From: a virus
Reading direction: 5' to 3' (one strand)
Length of the DNA: 23,638 bases
Virus record (IMG/VR): IMGVR_UViG_3300044731_001268
Location: 1 to 23,638 of that record
Shown: positions 2,988-21,646 of the stretch, piece by piece
Numbering within the stretch: position 1 is the stretch's first letter
Layout of the letters: the number at the start of each line of letters is the position of its first letter
The notes under the pieces: generated by a model
Databases searched by the model: none
What the model was told of the DNA's origin: nothing
What the model saw: only the letters and a program-made list of their open reading frames with translations
Translations under genes and position numbers: made by a program

Positions 2988-3050
2988 AATCGGACAGGGA
3001 GATATGGAGACAGGGAGATATGGAGACAAGGAGACAGAGAGATAGTAAGA
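2988..3050 (+). repeat. Purine-rich spacer repeats (GGAGATATGGAGACA type)
   Basis: Imperfect direct repeats GGAGATATGGAGACA occur twice, followed by further GGAGACA/GAGA variants, between the integrase stop and the terminator. A 15-mer at 2988-3002 (AATCGGACAGGGAGA) is identical to 21319-21333 in the spacer after the portal gene, so this belongs to a dispersed spacer family. Confidence 0.6.
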
Positions 3051-3055
3051 CAGAG

Positions 3056-7246: not shown

Positions 7247-7731
7247 AAACCTCCCCTTCTCGACCCCAAAAACCTGCCGCGAAAAAACATGGCGGCGGCC
7301 ATGAGTATGTGCTGGCTGTCGAAAAGCTGCTGCCAGCCGAGCGTGTCATTGCCGGTCCTTATCTGGTTACGCACGAGATGCGGCACATTCGCAGCGAGGA
7401 ACAAGGGCTGGCGGCCAAGGCGCTTTCGGTCCAGACAAAAAACGGTCACAAGGCGCGGATCGTGATGCACCAGGGCCGGGCGTTTGTGGTCCGCCCGCGT
7501 GAGGGCTGGGTGTCGGCGGGCAAGCACGGGCTGCCGCGCACGGCCAAGGCGGTGCCGATGGTGGGGCAGGTCTGGGTGAGCAAGGAGCACGGCACGGCCC
7601 GGATCACGAACCTGACCCGCGACAGCATCGACTACCAGCTTGAGGCCGCCAAGGAGGGCCACCGCAACAAGGTTTCCCCGCTGAACTGGTTCACGAAACA
7701 CTTCACCCCGGCCCAGAAATCCCATGCATAA
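7243..7731 (+). CDS. Unknown basic protein of the replication operon
   Basis: 162 residues from GTG 7243, overlapping the previous stop. Basic and His-rich; the start (residues 1-20) is lysine/proline rich and the middle (RIVMHQGRAFVVRP, GQVWVSKEHGTARITNLTR) is beta-rich, like a small SH3- or OB-like barrel. Not recognised. It overlaps the initiator gene by 8 bases, so is co-translated with it. Confidence 0.65.
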   Translation: MKTSPSRPQKPAAKKHGGGHEYVLAVEKLLPAERVIAGPYLVTHEMRHIRSEEQGLAAKALSVQTKNGHKARIVMHQGRAFVVRPREGWVSAGKHGLPRTAKAVPMVGQVWVSKEHGTARITNLTRDSIDYQLEAAKEGHRNKVSPLNWFTKHFTPAQKSHA

Positions 7732-8698
7732 ATACTGGCGACACATCGGCGATTACGCGAAGGACACGCGCCACTTGTCCATTCTGGAGCATGGAGCCTA
7801 CACGCTCATGCTGGACTGGTGCTATGCTTCGGAAAAGCCGCTGCCAGTGGATGAAAAGGTGCTGTTCCGGTTGTGCGGCGCGTTTGAAAAAGCGGAGCAA
7901 AAGGCCGTCATGGCCGTGCGCGACGAGTTCTTTGTCCTTGAATCTCAAGGCTGGACGCAAAAGCGCGTGATGGAAGAGATCGGAGAATACCAGGACAAGA
8001 AGAGCAAGGCGAGCAAAGCGGCAGACATGCGCTGGCAATGCGAACGCAATGCGGATGCATTACAAACGCATAGCGTCCGCAATGCGAACGCAGATGCGAA
8101 CGGTATGCCTCGCGCGCGCGTTCCAGCAACCAGCAACCAACAACCATCAACCAGTTTCTTGCTCGCACCTGACGGTGCCGAGCCGCCGCCGAGCGCCGAG
8201 GCTTCCGCCATTGACCTCGCATCCGATCCCCAGAAAAAAAAGAAAGGGGGCGCGGCGGATGAAGGTTTGGCATGGGCGGCTGAAACGGGCTGGCGTGGCT
8301 TTACGGATACGCTGATGAGTGAACTGGCCGAGGCTTACCCGGCCTGTGATATCCGCAGGCAAATGCTGGCGATGGAGCAATGGCTGAAGGCGAACAAGGC
8401 GAAGGCTAAAAAGTCGAACTGGAGGAAGTTTGTCACCAACTGGCTTGCCAAGGAGCAGGATCGCGGCGGCGATTTGCGAGGCCGCACACCATCGCAGGCA
8501 TTCATGGCCGCGTATGAGTCGAGAAATGACCCGCCGCCACGCATGATCGAATCGCCCCCGGAAGGCTACGAGGCGGCGATGGTGGAGCTGTGGGGCGAGG
8601 GGTGGCAGGAGACGGTGCCCGCGTGGGCGCAGATGGTGGCGAGTGACAAGGCGCAGGTGCGCAAGTGGCTGGCGGAGCATGGAAAGGAGGCCGCATGA
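7724..8698 (+). CDS. DUF1376 (YdaU-like) replication initiator
   Basis: 324 residues. The N-terminal 90 residues (YWRHIGDYAKDTRHLSILEHG, AYTLMLDWCYASEKPLP) match the DUF1376/YdaU family, found in phage replication modules. Residues 100-190 are low-complexity and polar (ERNADALQTHSVRNANADAN, NQQPSTS, KKKKGG). The C-terminal part (residues 190-324) is helical with Trp, probably for helicase loading. The low-complexity part coincides with an 11-bp iteron array and 7-bp repeats at DNA level, so the origin appears to lie inside the gene as in the lambda O gene. The stop overlaps the DnaB start as ATGA. Initiator role is inferred from family and position. Confidence 0.75.
   Translation: MHKYWRHIGDYAKDTRHLSILEHGAYTLMLDWCYASEKPLPVDEKVLFRLCGAFEKAEQKAVMAVRDEFFVLESQGWTQKRVMEEIGEYQDKKSKASKAADMRWQCERNADALQTHSVRNANADANGMPRARVPATSNQQPSTSFLLAPDGAEPPPSAEASAIDLASDPQKKKKGGAADEGLAWAAETGWRGFTDTLMSELAEAYPACDIRRQMLAMEQWLKANKAKAKKSNWRKFVTNWLAKEQDRGGDLRGRTPSQAFMAAYESRNDPPPRMIESPPEGYEAAMVELWGEGWQETVPAWAQMVASDKAQVRKWLAEHGKEAA
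8026..8150. other. Candidate phage replication origin: 11-bp iterons plus 7-bp repeats
   Basis: Seven to eight consecutive units spaced 11 bp (one of 12) fill 8026-8114. AATGCGAACGC occurs exactly at 8037-8047 and 8081-8091; variants are AATGCGGATGC, ATTACAAACGC, ATAGCGTCCGC and GATGCGAACGG. A CG run (8111-8120) and 7-bp repeats CCAGCAA, CCAGCAA, CCAACAA, CCATCAA (8123-8150) follow. Because 11 is not a multiple of three, the repeats do not give a repeated peptide, so they are selected as DNA. Confidence 0.65.
8233..8255 (+). repeat. Dispersed poly-A/G-rich repeat, third plus-strand copy
   Basis: Eight A, GAAA, five G, then CGCGGC; closely like 6633-6654. It encodes KKKKGG in the initiator linker. 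Confidence 0.5.
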
Positions 8699-10350
8699 GC
8701 GATTTCCCGAACAAAGAAAAGCTCGTTTCCACCGAGGAGCGGCTGGCGAGGATCAACCGGGCGCTGCCGTTTTCGGATGAGGCGGAAAAAGGGGTGTTGT
8801 CGTGCTTGATGCAGGACCCGGAGCGCATTGCGGAGGTGCGGGCGAAGCTGCCGGTCGAGGCGTTTTACCATGTCGGCAGCCGGACGTTGTTCGAGGTGAT
8901 GCTGGAGATGCTGGACAAAAACCTGCCGGTGGAGCCGGTGGCGCTGACGCATCGGCTGCGGGACCAGGACAAGCTGGAGCTGGTGGGCGGCGCGGCGCAG
9001 GTGACGGAGCTTTACACCTTCGTGCCGATCGCGGCGCACTACCCGCACTATGTCGGCATCATCCGCGAGAAGTGGGCGCTTCGGCAGACCATTCATGCAT
9101 GCGCTGAGAGTATTGACGAGTGCCTGGCACATGGCAGCGAGGACACGAGCGAGGATGTGACGACCGTGGTAGGCCGTGCCGAGGGGCGCGTGTTTGAGTG
9201 CGTGCAGGCTTTGCAAGCCTCCGGCGAATACTCAACCGGCCCCGTGCATGCGAAGCGTGGCGTGATGGACTGGCTGGAGCGGACGGAGCAGACCATTGCC
9301 AATCGTGGCAAGATCATGGGCATCGAGACGGGTATTCTGGAACTCGATCAGACCGTGCATGGACTCGATGACGCGCAGGGCGAGATTGTCGTCATTGCCG
9401 GCCGCCCCGGACAGGGCAAGACCGCGATGGCAACGACGCTGATTCACAACCTTGCCGTCGAGCGAGCAGTGCCGGGACTTGTGTTCAGCGCGGAAATGAG
9501 CGCGGTGCAGCTTTACGACCGCATCATCTTGGGCGGCGCTGGCATCGACACATCCAAGGCCATCACCGGCATGTTTTCGCGTGACGATCAGGATGGCATG
9601 CGCACGAAGCTACGGCAGGTGCAAGGCAGTCCATTGCTCATCAGTGACGGATCAGCCATTTCCACCGCCGACATTCGCAGCCAGGTGCAGGTGGCGAAGC
9701 GGCAGCATGGCATCCGCTGGATCGTGGTCGATCATTTGCACCTCATCAAAGCCGTCAGCAAACGCGGACTGAAAGACGAGCGCGAGGCGCTGGTGGAGGT
9801 GATGGAGACGCTGCAATTTGTGAAGAAGTTCTACAAGCTCACGGTGCTGCTCATGGTGCAGCTCAACCGTGAAACCGACCGCAACGCGGGCAAGCCGCCG
9901 GTGCTGGCGGATCTGAGCGGCAGCGCGGCGATTGAATGGTATGCAGACCACGTTTGGATGCAGCACCGCGATCCTTATTTCTTTGGCTGGCACACGCTGA
10001 GCGCGGAGAAAAAGAAAGGCTGGATGGACGCGGTGGAGCCTCGCCGGATGCGGAATCCGCACTGCTGGAGCGCGGGCGAGAAGTATCAGCCGGACGAGGG
10101 CGGGTGGGCGCGGGAGGACTATGAGGAGGACGCCAAGATTTATGTGCGCAAAAACCGGCGAGGCCCGACGCCGGAGCTGCATGTGCGCTTCGAGCCGGAG
10201 CGCACCTGGTTTTCCTCACGCATGCCCAAGCTCAACTCCACCGACTGGCGCGACTGGCAGTTCGGCAGCTACGCGATCCCCAAGAAGGAGACGACCGAGA
10301 AACGCGGCCGTCCGAAGCAAAGCAGTCTCGATGAAGATTTCCCGGATTAA
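8695..10350 (+). CDS. dnaB: Replicative DNA helicase, DnaB family
   Basis: 551 residues; ATG 8695 has a strong AAAGGAGG at 8683-8690 and overlaps the previous stop. The N-terminal domain (residues 20-140, ALPFSDEAEKGVLSCLMQDP) is DnaB_N. The RecA-like motor follows: Walker A AGRPGQGKT at 235-243, Walker B WIVVDHLHLI at 342-351, motif QLNRETD at 389-395 and DLSGSAAIEWYADHVW at 406-421, the arginine-finger region. It unwinds DNA at the phage fork as a hexamer, probably loaded by the DUF1376 protein. It is longer than the roughly 470 residues of bacterial DnaB because of an insertion after residue 420 (Trp- and Lys-rich) and a basic tail. Confidence 0.92.
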   Translation: MSDFPNKEKLVSTEERLARINRALPFSDEAEKGVLSCLMQDPERIAEVRAKLPVEAFYHVGSRTLFEVMLEMLDKNLPVEPVALTHRLRDQDKLELVGGAAQVTELYTFVPIAAHYPHYVGIIREKWALRQTIHACAESIDECLAHGSEDTSEDVTTVVGRAEGRVFECVQALQASGEYSTGPVHAKRGVMDWLERTEQTIANRGKIMGIETGILELDQTVHGLDDAQGEIVVIAGRPGQGKTAMATTLIHNLAVERAVPGLVFSAEMSAVQLYDRIILGGAGIDTSKAITGMFSRDDQDGMRTKLRQVQGSPLLISDGSAISTADIRSQVQVAKRQHGIRWIVVDHLHLIKAVSKRGLKDEREALVEVMETLQFVKKFYKLTVLLMVQLNRETDRNAGKPPVLADLSGSAAIEWYADHVWMQHRDPYFFGWHTLSAEKKKGWMDAVEPRRMRNPHCWSAGEKYQPDEGGWAREDYEEDAKIYVRKNRRGPTPELHVRFEPERTWFSSRMPKLNSTDWRDWQFGSYAIPKKETTEKRGRPKQSSLDEDFPD

Positions 10351-10371
10351 CCAAGAACCAAGAACGAAGCT

Positions 10372-10953: not shown

Positions 10954-11378
10954 AAACTAAACTGCGAAGACAGCGCAGCGAACGCAAGTTTGCCAAAGTT
11001 GCACGTTTGCCAGAAAACCAATGGGCAAAAAATAATAACATTCGATGGAGAGTCAGTGATTATTTTACGGGCGAACGCCGCCGTTCGTATTTCAAAAACG
11101 AAGTGGATGCTCGTGCCTTTGCAGCGGCGTTAAATGCGGAGTTTGCCAGCGTGCCACCCAAAGAGATTTATGCAGCGTGGGCTTTCGTTGATGAGTGGCT
11201 ACGGCATTTCGGTGGAGGCTCGCTGCTAGAGTTAGGCAAAGCGAGAATCTTGGAGCTTCAGCAAAGCCGTCCATCAAGTAGCAAGCAAACCAAAAGATTT
11301 ATGCAGATGCTTGCTGCTGGTTTTGACATCAAAACCAAAGCCATTGGTGCTTCAAATCTAATAAGCAAGAACCACTAA
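10950..11378 (+). CDS. Orphan integrase-arm-like DNA-binding protein
   Basis: 142 residues. Residues 25-70 (NNIRWRVSDYFTGERRRSYF, KNEVDARAFAAALNAEF) resemble the AP2-like arm-DNA-binding domain at the N-terminus of tyrosine integrases: a basic three-stranded sheet and a helix. There is no catalytic domain after it, and its DNA is more AT-rich than its neighbours. It may bind the arm sites of attP and act as a directionality factor, or be a truncated integrase remnant. ATGA overlap with the gene before. Moderate support only. Confidence 0.5.
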   Translation: MKTKLRRQRSERKFAKVARLPENQWAKNNNIRWRVSDYFTGERRRSYFKNEVDARAFAAALNAEFASVPPKEIYAAWAFVDEWLRHFGGGSLLELGKARILELQQSRPSSSKQTKRFMQMLAAGFDIKTKAIGASNLISKNH

Positions 11379-11406
11379 CCAATAACTCATAACTAATAAC
11401 ACACCC

Positions 11407-13813: not shown

Positions 13814-14527
13814 ATGACCGACATCACCGCCCCGATTCTTGGCAGCAGCGTCTTGTTAGGCCCCGTTGGTCTAGCGCATGGCATAAGGCCGTATTACCAA
13901 GACGCAGCCGTTACCATATATCATGGAGACAATCGCGTCATCATGCCGCAACTCGCTCCGTTCGATCTCCTACTGACTGACCCGCCGTATGGGATCGGGG
14001 CGGACAATCGAAAGCGCATTCTGTCGCGGAGGAAGTTGGCTGCCGCCAAAGACTACGGAGAACAAAACTGGGATGCCGATGTGGTCGATGAATGGGTGAT
14101 GTTCCTCGCTCGAAGACTTGGAAGAAAGCAGATCATCTTCGGGGGAAACTATTACGACCTGCCTCCGACGAAATGCTGGCTGGTATGGGACAAGCTAAAC
14201 GGGGAGAATGACTTTGCTGACTGCGAGCTTGCATGGACGAACCTGGAGCGAGCTGTAAGGCGAAAGACTCATTTATGGAATGGGATGCTACGCAAAGGCG
14301 GAGAGGATCGTGACCACCCAACGCAAAAGCCGCTGGAGGTAATCTCATGGGCGCTCCAGCTCGCTGGAGACGTGACGACAGTGCTCGACCCGTGGGCAGG
14401 CTCAGGAACAACCGGACGTGCCTGCAAAGACCTCGGCAAGCTGTGCGTGCTTATCGAGCGAGAGGAACGCTACTGCGAGGTAGCAGCCCAACGCATGGAA
14501 CAAGAAGTGCTCCCGCTAGGGGCCTAA
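13814..14527 (+). CDS. DNA methyltransferase, beta-class (N4-cytosine or N6-adenine)
   Basis: 237 residues from ATG 13814. Motif IV is TDPPYG (D56 to Y59) near the N-terminus and the AdoMet motif DPWAGSGTT is at 192-200 near the C-terminus, the order of beta-class enzymes. YYQDAAVTIYHGDN at 27-40 is the usual start of these proteins, so the first 26 residues are an extension and an in-frame TTG at 13853 is an alternative start. No restriction gene is next to it, so it is a solitary methylase, likely protecting phage DNA or altering its regulation. The target cannot be predicted. The stop lies inside GCCTAAC. Confidence 0.85.
   Translation: MTDITAPILGSSVLLGPVGLAHGIRPYYQDAAVTIYHGDNRVIMPQLAPFDLLLTDPPYGIGADNRKRILSRRKLAAAKDYGEQNWDADVVDEWVMFLARRLGRKQIIFGGNYYDLPPTKCWLVWDKLNGENDFADCELAWTNLERAVRRKTHLWNGMLRKGGEDRDHPTQKPLEVISWALQLAGDVTTVLDPWAGSGTTGRACKDLGKLCVLIEREERYCEVAAQRMEQEVLPLGA
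13847..13867 (+). repeat. 21-bp repeat with GTTAGGC, copy 1
   Basis: AGCGTCTTGTTAGGC and six more bases; 18 of 21 positions equal those at 14639-14659. It lies in the same frame near the start of the first methyltransferase, as copy 2 does in the second. Confidence 0.6.
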
Positions 14528-14653
14528 CGCCAGCGGTGAGCCGCGCCCCCTCGAATGACTATGAACACCACGACTGAAACCCTGACCCTCGAAAGCCCTG
14601 CGCAGGCCGCCAGCGTGACCAGCGGGGGTGTTGGCTCTAGCGCCTTGTTGGGC
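14522..14653 (+). other. Candidate integron attC-like site between the methyltransferases
   Basis: GCCTAAC (14522-14528, fits RYYYAAC) and GTTGGGC (14647-14653, fits GTTRRRY) can pair completely with one G-T. Inside them GAGCC (14538-14542) pairs with GGCTC (14633-14637) and CCCCC (14546-14550) with GGGGG (14624-14628). The 132-base length is within the range of known attC sites. It overlaps the start of the second methyltransferase frame, which is against a standard cassette boundary, so confidence is low. Confidence 0.3.
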
Positions 14654-15085
14654 TCCGTTCATTTTTCGAGCGCGTCCGATGAATGGCCAACGCCTCGCGC
14701 CTACTTTGAAACGGTGGAACGTGAGTTCGGCCCCTTCGACCTCGACCCGTGCGCAACGCCTGCCAGCGCCAAGGCTCCCAAATACTTCACGAAAGCAGAC
14801 GACGGCCTCGCCCAAGAATGGCGCGGGCGCGTGTGGATGAATCCGCCCTACGGTCGCACCATCGGCGCGTGGATGCGGAAAGCCTACGAAGCCGCGCAAG
14901 CCGGGGCTGTGGTGGTGTGCCTAGTGCCAGCCCGCACGGACACCGCATGGTGGCACGACTACGCAGCCAAAGGCACCGTCCGCTTCCTGCGCGGGCGGTT
15001 GAAGTTCGGAGACGCCAAGAACTCCGCGCCCTTCCCCTCGGCTCTCGTCGTCTTTGGTATGCCTAACAAGAATTATCCAGACTGA
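14555..15085 (+). CDS. Phage N6-adenine DNA methyltransferase (Dam-like)
   Basis: 176 residues from ATG 14555; ATG 14561 or an in-frame TTG 14648 are alternatives, and the last would start MGSVHFSSASDEWPTP, the usual family beginning. SDEWPTPRAYFETVEREFGP, FDLDPCAT and the catalytic NPPYG (96-100) identify the phage N6-adenine-methyltransferase family. The first 33 residues are an extension encoded over the attC-like region. It methylates adenine in phage DNA; the target is unknown. The end of the gene carries GCCTAACAAG (15061-15070), the exact inverse complement of 13852-13861. Confidence 0.88.
   Translation: MTMNTTTETLTLESPAQAASVTSGGVGSSALLGSVHFSSASDEWPTPRAYFETVEREFGPFDLDPCATPASAKAPKYFTKADDGLAQEWRGRVWMNPPYGRTIGAWMRKAYEAAQAGAVVVCLVPARTDTAWWHDYAAKGTVRFLRGRLKFGDAKNSAPFPSALVVFGMPNKNYPD
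14639..14659 (+). repeat. 21-bp repeat with GTTGGGC, copy 2
   Basis: Second copy of the sequence at 13847-13867, differing at three positions. Confidence 0.6.
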
Positions 15086-21310: not shown

Positions 21311-21315
21311 CGGGA

Positions 21316-21341
21316 GACAATCGGACAGGGAGACAATCAGA
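21316..21341 (+). repeat. GACAATCRGA spacer repeats after portal
   Basis: GACAATCGGA (21316-21325) and GACAATCAGA (21332-21341) lie just before ATG 21344. AATCGGACAGGGAGA (21319-21333) is identical to 2988-3002. Confidence 0.65.
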
Positions 21342-21343
21342 CC

Positions 21344-21646
21344 ATGAGACAAAGCAAAAGCAGAAACAGCCGAGTGCTGGTTGAGACGTGCATGGAGTCC
21401 GGGCCGTTGACGGAGGATCAGATTGCGGATGCTTTGGAAGCCACGCATGAGACGCGGGAGCTGCGGGCGGTGATGTCGCTCATCGAATGCTTCATTGCGG
21501 AGGCGCACGCGGAGATGACACAGCGGGGGCAGGAGGCACGGATTCGGGACGAGGCGGCGGGCGCGGCGCGGTTTTTGAAGGATCTGCGGGCCGATGTGAT
21601 CCGGCTCACGGCGCGGAAGAAGCCGGACAAAGCACCTGAAAAGTGA
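21344..21646 (+). CDS. Unknown small protein after the portal
   Basis: 100 residues, charged and helical throughout, basic C-terminus (LTARKKPDKAPEK). No recognised domain; possible head-maturation or scaffold partner from position. The 111 bases after its stop (21647-21757) hold no gene, only a hairpin at the end. Confidence 0.55.
   Translation: MRQSKSRNSRVLVETCMESGPLTEDQIADALEATHETRELRAVMSLIECFIAEAHAEMTQRGQEARIRDEAAGAARFLKDLRADVIRLTARKKPDKAPEK

Follow-up and report, generated by a model that had tools for sequence, protein, structure and literature searches.

The DUF1376 gene of the IMG/VR virus record IMGVR_UViG_3300044731_001268 carries, within its coding sequence, a set of 11-bp iterons followed by a 7-bp tandem array. 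This segment is probably a phage replication origin embedded in its own initiator gene, in which the DUF1376 protein would bind the iterons and the 7-bp array would serve as the opening and loading zone. The best reading of the sequences is that DUF1376 proteins are predicted initiators of the lambda O kind, for which we infer binding, opening, loading and origin activity. The stretch of DNA analyzed, hereafter the window, comprises 23,638 bp (positions 1 to 23,638 of the record) and has the following features at the locus.

7724..8698, plus strand: DUF1376 (YdaU-type) gene, 324 aa, predicted phage replication initiator (PF07120, PHROGs)
7733..7981, plus strand: DUF1376 domain, residues 4-86, winged-helix-like by predicted topology (Pfam; AlphaFold2)
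7961..8050, plus strand: long C-terminal helix of the DUF1376 domain, residues 80-109, ending in the basic tail '..KASKAADMRWQ'
8035..8102, plus strand: 11-bp iterons, consensus CAATGCGAACG / CGCAWTGCG + AA, five in register and one displaced by 1 bp
8045..8053, no strand assigned: palindromic iteron core CGCAATGCG (palindrome analysis)
8078..8086, no strand assigned: palindromic iteron core CGCAATGCG (palindrome analysis)
8123..8154, plus strand: 7-bp array (CCANCAA)4 + CCAG, A/C-rich on the coding strand, predicted opening/helicase-loading element
8695..10350, plus strand: DnaB-like replicative helicase gene (Pfam, PHROG 19)

The window gene matches Pfam PF07120 (DUF1376/YdaU) with 87.7 bits against a gathering score of 30.1 (E 6.9e-25) and also matches PHROGs 'primosomal protein' families (E 2.4e-30). 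Its stop codon is overlapped by 4 bp (ATGA) by the start of the helicase gene, which is recognized by Pfam DnaB_C (E 3.9e-51) and DnaB (E 1.6e-22) and by PHROG 19 (E 2.4e-69). Both repeat sets sit between the DUF1376 domain and the C-terminal part of the protein, and the DNA coding for the end of the long C-terminal helix overlaps the first iterons. The AlphaFold2 model of the domain (pLDDT 89) has the order H-H-H-H-E-E-H, that is, four helices, a hairpin and a long C-terminal helix, from which we infer a winged-helix-like fold. A search of PDB folds with this model returned nothing significant; several of the top matches were winged-helix domains (ORC2, CggR), all with E values of at least 0.5, as were the best matches overall. 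A PDB sequence search gave no convincing relative. Elsewhere in the window two adjacent DNA methyltransferase genes, of the N6_N4_Mtase and Dam types, are found at 13814-15082.

Five iteron units follow one another in register with a period of 11 bp, beginning at 8036 (CAATGCGAACG), 8047 (CAATGCGGATG), 8058 (CATTACAAACG), 8069 (CATAGCGTCCG) and 8080 (CAATGCGAACG), and a sixth at 8092 (AGATGCGAACG) is shifted by one base. Tandem Repeats Finder reports 8035-8102 as a repeat of period 11 with 6.1 copies and 70% matches, the lag-11 self-match computed over 90-bp intervals is highest at the iterons in the whole 23.6-kb window, and the observed periodicity was reached by none of 30 codon shuffles of the gene. 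The iterons that the initial annotation placed inside the initiator gene are thus real and beyond chance, although the span it gave, from 8026 onward, began about 9 bases early, the true start being 8035. A GC-skew turn at the locus, named there merely as a check, was looked for and is absent; cumulative GC skew simply rises across it.

The array at 8123-8154 reads CCAGCAA CCAGCAA CCAACAA CCATCAA CCAG. The string AACCNNNAACCNNNAACC (7-spaced AACC, three exact copies) has two overlapping occurrences in the whole window, both in this array, against 0.01 expected, and the CCANCAA repeats described beside the iterons are also genuine. The array is just modestly A+T-rich (15 of 32 bases), the window itself being GC-rich. 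Short 8/16-bp tandem repeats of another kind lie around gene ends at 2993-3053 and 21312-21352 (GACAGGGAGATATGGA; GGGAGACAATCAGACA).

The same arrangement was found in nearly all of 24 close viral relatives plus ten further DUF1376 genes, namely those of E. coli Rac, of named phages of Acinetobacter, Vibrio, Pseudomonas, Shewanella, Paracoccus and Methylophilaceae, and of an uncultured phage. The set was then widened by two alignments with N-terminal-domain patterns, and hence was not selected for the linker, giving 176 genes that were thinned at 80% nucleotide identity to 86 representatives. A significant 11-bp period was present in 75 of the 86, a 7-bp period in 74 and both in 67, and in each of these 67 the iterons come first and the 7-bp array follows on their 3' side. 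The initial annotation had proposed looking for such repeats in other DUF1376 genes, with their absence from close homologues among the refuting outcomes; they are present. Relative to codon shuffles, mean linker self-match was 32 sd above at lag 11, about 20 at lag 22 and about 16 at lag 7, z-scores computed as if the genes were independent, which is only partly true. In the same test the C-terminal region showed no such peaks and the domain region hardly any, apart from a slight rise at lag 11. Control lags were significant in 5-17 of the 86 genes, which is at or near background for most lags, and control regions in 0-3 of 25, which is near background.

The signal persists among distant genes. 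After thinning to domain identities below 60, 50, 45 and 40%, lag 11 was significant in 29 of 34, 12 of 14, 8 of 9 and 6 of 6 genes, respectively, and the order of array after iterons was kept in every gene of the thinned sets that had both repeats. About 13% of the representatives are missing a clear 11-bp signal. In the records of 12 relatives (25-60 kb), exact iteron cores are confined to the DUF1376 gene, with a few one-mismatch copies elsewhere. Eight DUF1376 genes (L156, L259, L293, L311, L253, L255, Vibrio 1.003 and phiAC-1) have an extra iteron copy (ATGCGAACGCAT) within the domain coding sequence at gene nucleotides 157-168, where it encodes a conserved 'MRTH' peptide. Five others (L201, L203, L207, L218 and L230) are shorter than 160 aa and end soon after the iterons and array without a C-terminal domain; the minimal unit may be the DUF1376 domain plus the origin.

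As 11 is not a multiple of 3, successive copies of a unit fall in three different reading frames and encode different peptides, which makes selection at the DNA level the simplest reading. The earlier argument that a period out of step with codons must be selected as DNA is in line with this three-frame reading and with the codon shuffles. It is highly improbable that both repeats are by-products of a low-complexity linker, produced by protein-level selection or drift. That reading would fit the linker location, where repeats cost little, and the resemblance of linker peptides across phages, but neither 11 nor 7 is a multiple of 3, one DNA unit gives different peptides, the periods are not reproduced by codon shuffles, and the units are palindromic and track the type of protein tail.

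The commonest unit is CGCAWTGCG + AA, and other groups have CGTTSAACG, CCCASTGGG/GGTTATT, GTGCACG or GGASTCC; the iteron text varies by group while its place is constant and its period 11 in most. The units hold short odd-centre palindromes, perfect or near-perfect (the GTGCAC centre is even). Codon shuffles gave 25.6 odd-centre palindromes (sd 5.1), whereas the linkers contain 81, whose axes are 11, 22, 33 or 44 bp apart, and no palindrome excess was found when other regions of the genes were searched.

The ends of the DUF1376 domains fall into tail types (..KARW, ..GGRPKK, ..AGKAS.. and ..RExxR), and iteron sequence tracks this basic tail, not overall domain identity. Iteron classes were first defined after looking, and the tail-iteron test was repeated with unsupervised 6-mers. 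By this measure iteron similarity was about 0.15 within a tail type versus 0.014 between types, the same-type pairs being mostly KARW and the smaller types comprising only 10, 5 and 2 genes. The roughly tenfold excess persists whatever the level of domain identity, the 50-70% range included, and the link was matched by none of 1000 label permutations. The tail codons are physically near the iterons, so that joint transfer explains part of the correlation; joint transfer of tail and iterons is what a recognition pair would show. The plasmid-borne DUF1376 genes of pSWBY1 and of the circular 60.7-kb pANC7919.1, found afterwards and judged by eye, have the iteron type that their tails predict.

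The match between tail and iteron types speaks for cognate recognition rather than for replication itself, and to that extent also suits a reading in which the iterons are operators by which DUF1376 controls its own operon or copy number, with replication starting elsewhere. Iterons of known replicons do also act in control. We nevertheless consider the operator reading improbable: sites about 300 bp inside a gene would be unusual for operators, a weak strand-asymmetric array follows them, and helicase or loader genes adjoin.

On average no part of the gene is less stable than that array, the median share of weaker intervals along the gene being 7%. Its mean GC across the family is 0.38 versus 0.51 in the iterons and 0.52 downstream, and the coding strand has A 0.50, C 0.34, G 0.06 and T 0.11, the strand being fixed (53 versus 1). 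An easily opened region adjoining the iterons is thus seen as a family average and is mild in the window itself.

Heptamers of this style also occur without 11-bp iterons. In the window, similar AACC-type repeats lie at gene junctions at 10349-10369 (the end of the DnaB-like gene) and 11372-11400 (the end of the ORF before 11407), and arrays of the same type are frequently seen at ordinary junctions between genes in IMG/VR contigs. A heptamer-first scan with AACCNNT x4, which serves as a control, returned 80 IMG/VR loci (L036-L115). Note that four such units put TAA in all three frames, so the scan can return solely non-coding or stop-bearing arrays. These loci carry arrays of at least four units in non-coding DNA, in many cases immediately ahead of a start codon, and the arrays amount to universal stops. 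In L057 (reverse strand, about 5115 from the 5' end), a DUF1376-like gene has an in-frame stop within its 7-bp array and the frame resumes after it. Arrays at junctions are common, and many bacterial genomes have an excess of heptameric repeats (PMC4692102); heptamers alone are therefore no marker of an origin, and the idea that they are origin-specific is not supported.

These observations also lend something to the view that the iterons are true initiator sites and the 7-bp array is a mere slippage-made heptanucleotide repeat tolerated in a flexible linker. Bacterial heptanucleotide simple repeats are likewise 7-bp tandem units, often near gene starts (PMC4692102). They are, however, mostly intergenic, whereas the DUF1376 array is coding and directly 3' of the iterons in 67 of 67 genes with both repeats, keeps its strand (53 vs 1), forms the weakest duplex on average, and is absent from the domain and C-terminal regions. 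Slippage alone is an unlikely explanation of the array.

The gene neighbors bear on loading. The gene that follows DUF1376 in named phages and in E. coli prophages is often one for a DnaB-like helicase, for a P-like loader or for an ATP-binding protein of the YdaV/DnaC-like kind. Neighbors were scanned with PHROGs and Pfam because tblastn with a few helicase and loader proteins matched just 27 of 73. Of the 85 ORFs lying immediately downstream, drawn from about 70 loci, about 24 were DnaB-like, 5 P-like and 3 DnaC-like; a recognized helicase or loader was missing as the next ORF in over half of the loci.

In E. coli the locus is mosaic, with a border just 3' of the iterons. The first 506 nucleotides of Rac ydaU (domain plus iterons) are common to another E. 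coli prophage, in which the C-terminal half is a DnaT domain and the adjoining gene is P-like, and nucleotides 485-858 are common to a prophage with an unrelated N-terminal half. In E. coli prophages the domain and iterons, judged from these sequences, move as one cassette, apart from the C-terminus. A gene of E. coli M18 (L326:2086-2874) joins an unrelated N-terminal half to a Rac YdaU C-terminal half and has its own GCGTTAC-like linker repeats.

The lambda-type origin put forward in the initial annotation draws support from the conservation of the repeats, their order and their position in distant DUF1376 genes, from sequence change at a kept period, palindromic units and iteron type following tail type, and from the low average duplex stability of the array, helicase and loader neighbors and cassette inheritance in E. 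coli. At the level of sequence it is supported, less the GC-skew turn and with a heptamer type that is not origin-specific. In the mechanism we propose, the palindromic 11-bp iterons, which at one per helical turn all lie on the same side of the duplex, would be bound by the DUF1376 domain, winged-helix-like by prediction and ending in a long basic helix. This protein-DNA complex would melt the weak A/C-rich array that directly follows the iterons on their 3' side, and the C-terminal part of the protein together with a phage helicase or loader would then load on the exposed strand. The loading partner would be DnaB-like in the window and P-like or DnaC-like in relatives.

The origin in lambda gene O adjoins the helicase-loader gene P, and an E. 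coli DUF1376 protein is likewise found adjoining a lambda P-like protein. Lambda iterons are about 18 bp, whereas the DUF1376 units are 11 bp and palindromic; the DUF1376 opening zone is a 7-bp A/C array in place of lambda's A+T tract, and the window encodes its own DnaB-like helicase. In lambdoid phages the iterons lie in the middle of initiator gene O, adjoining an AT-rich and strongly strand-asymmetric region (PMC7466680; PMC5043065), and DUF1376 genes too have iterons inside the initiator gene beside a weak strand-asymmetric region. Membership of the lambda O family (Phage_rep_O) was rejected, DUF1376 being the sole Pfam match at E <= 0.001. The comparison supports a DUF1376 locus that would work like a lambda-type origin without belonging to the lambda O family.

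The iterons of iteron plasmids are usually 17-22 bp and outside the rep gene, and the P1 origin has heptamers in its A+T-rich region. These plasmids (P1, F, RK2, pSC101) resemble DUF1376 loci in having repeated initiator sites beside an A+T-rich, sometimes repeated region, but the DUF1376 iterons are 11 bp and inside the gene. In the RK2 origin the A+T-rich region is itself repeated, as 13-mers (PMC5043065). The window protein has no match to a Pfam Rep family, and membership of the iteron-plasmid Rep proteins was rejected.

Rac ydaU also encodes a DUF1376 protein, carries in the corresponding linker a TGTTCAAAC-type repeat with 11-bp spacing, and has the ATP-binding YdaV as neighbor; it differs in its weaker iterons and in having no significant 7-bp array after them. 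The Rac prophage has an active origin, oriJ (PMC3945230), the position of which relative to ydaU was not found in the literature searched. E. coli K-12 ydaU is a candidate for Rac oriJ.

There is about an even chance that DUF1376 proteins form a separate, widespread initiator class with a gene-embedded origin, in which a swappable basic tail reads one palindromic 11-bp iteron per helical turn, the strand-asymmetric 7-bp array serves as a platform for loading in steps of 7 nucleotides, tail and iterons are exchanged as a cassette, and origin specificity is legible from the protein. The tail code forms part of the same estimate and would run from KARW to CGCAWTGCG, AGKAS to GTTSAAC, GGRP to CCCASTGGG and RExxR to GTGCACG. 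In the PubMed Central literature searched, where DUF1376 is rarely mentioned, no description of an origin-in-gene role was found. Genes for DUF1376 (YdaU) occur widely in phages and prophages from several bacterial phyla, and annotation calls the family unknown or, vaguely, 'primosomal'. If the reading is true, a large family would gain a function and origins could be located by eye in any DUF1376 phage. The correspondence between protein tail and DNA site could be put to the test, and oriJ of the Rac prophage would gain a concrete candidate in a laboratory strain, E. coli K-12.
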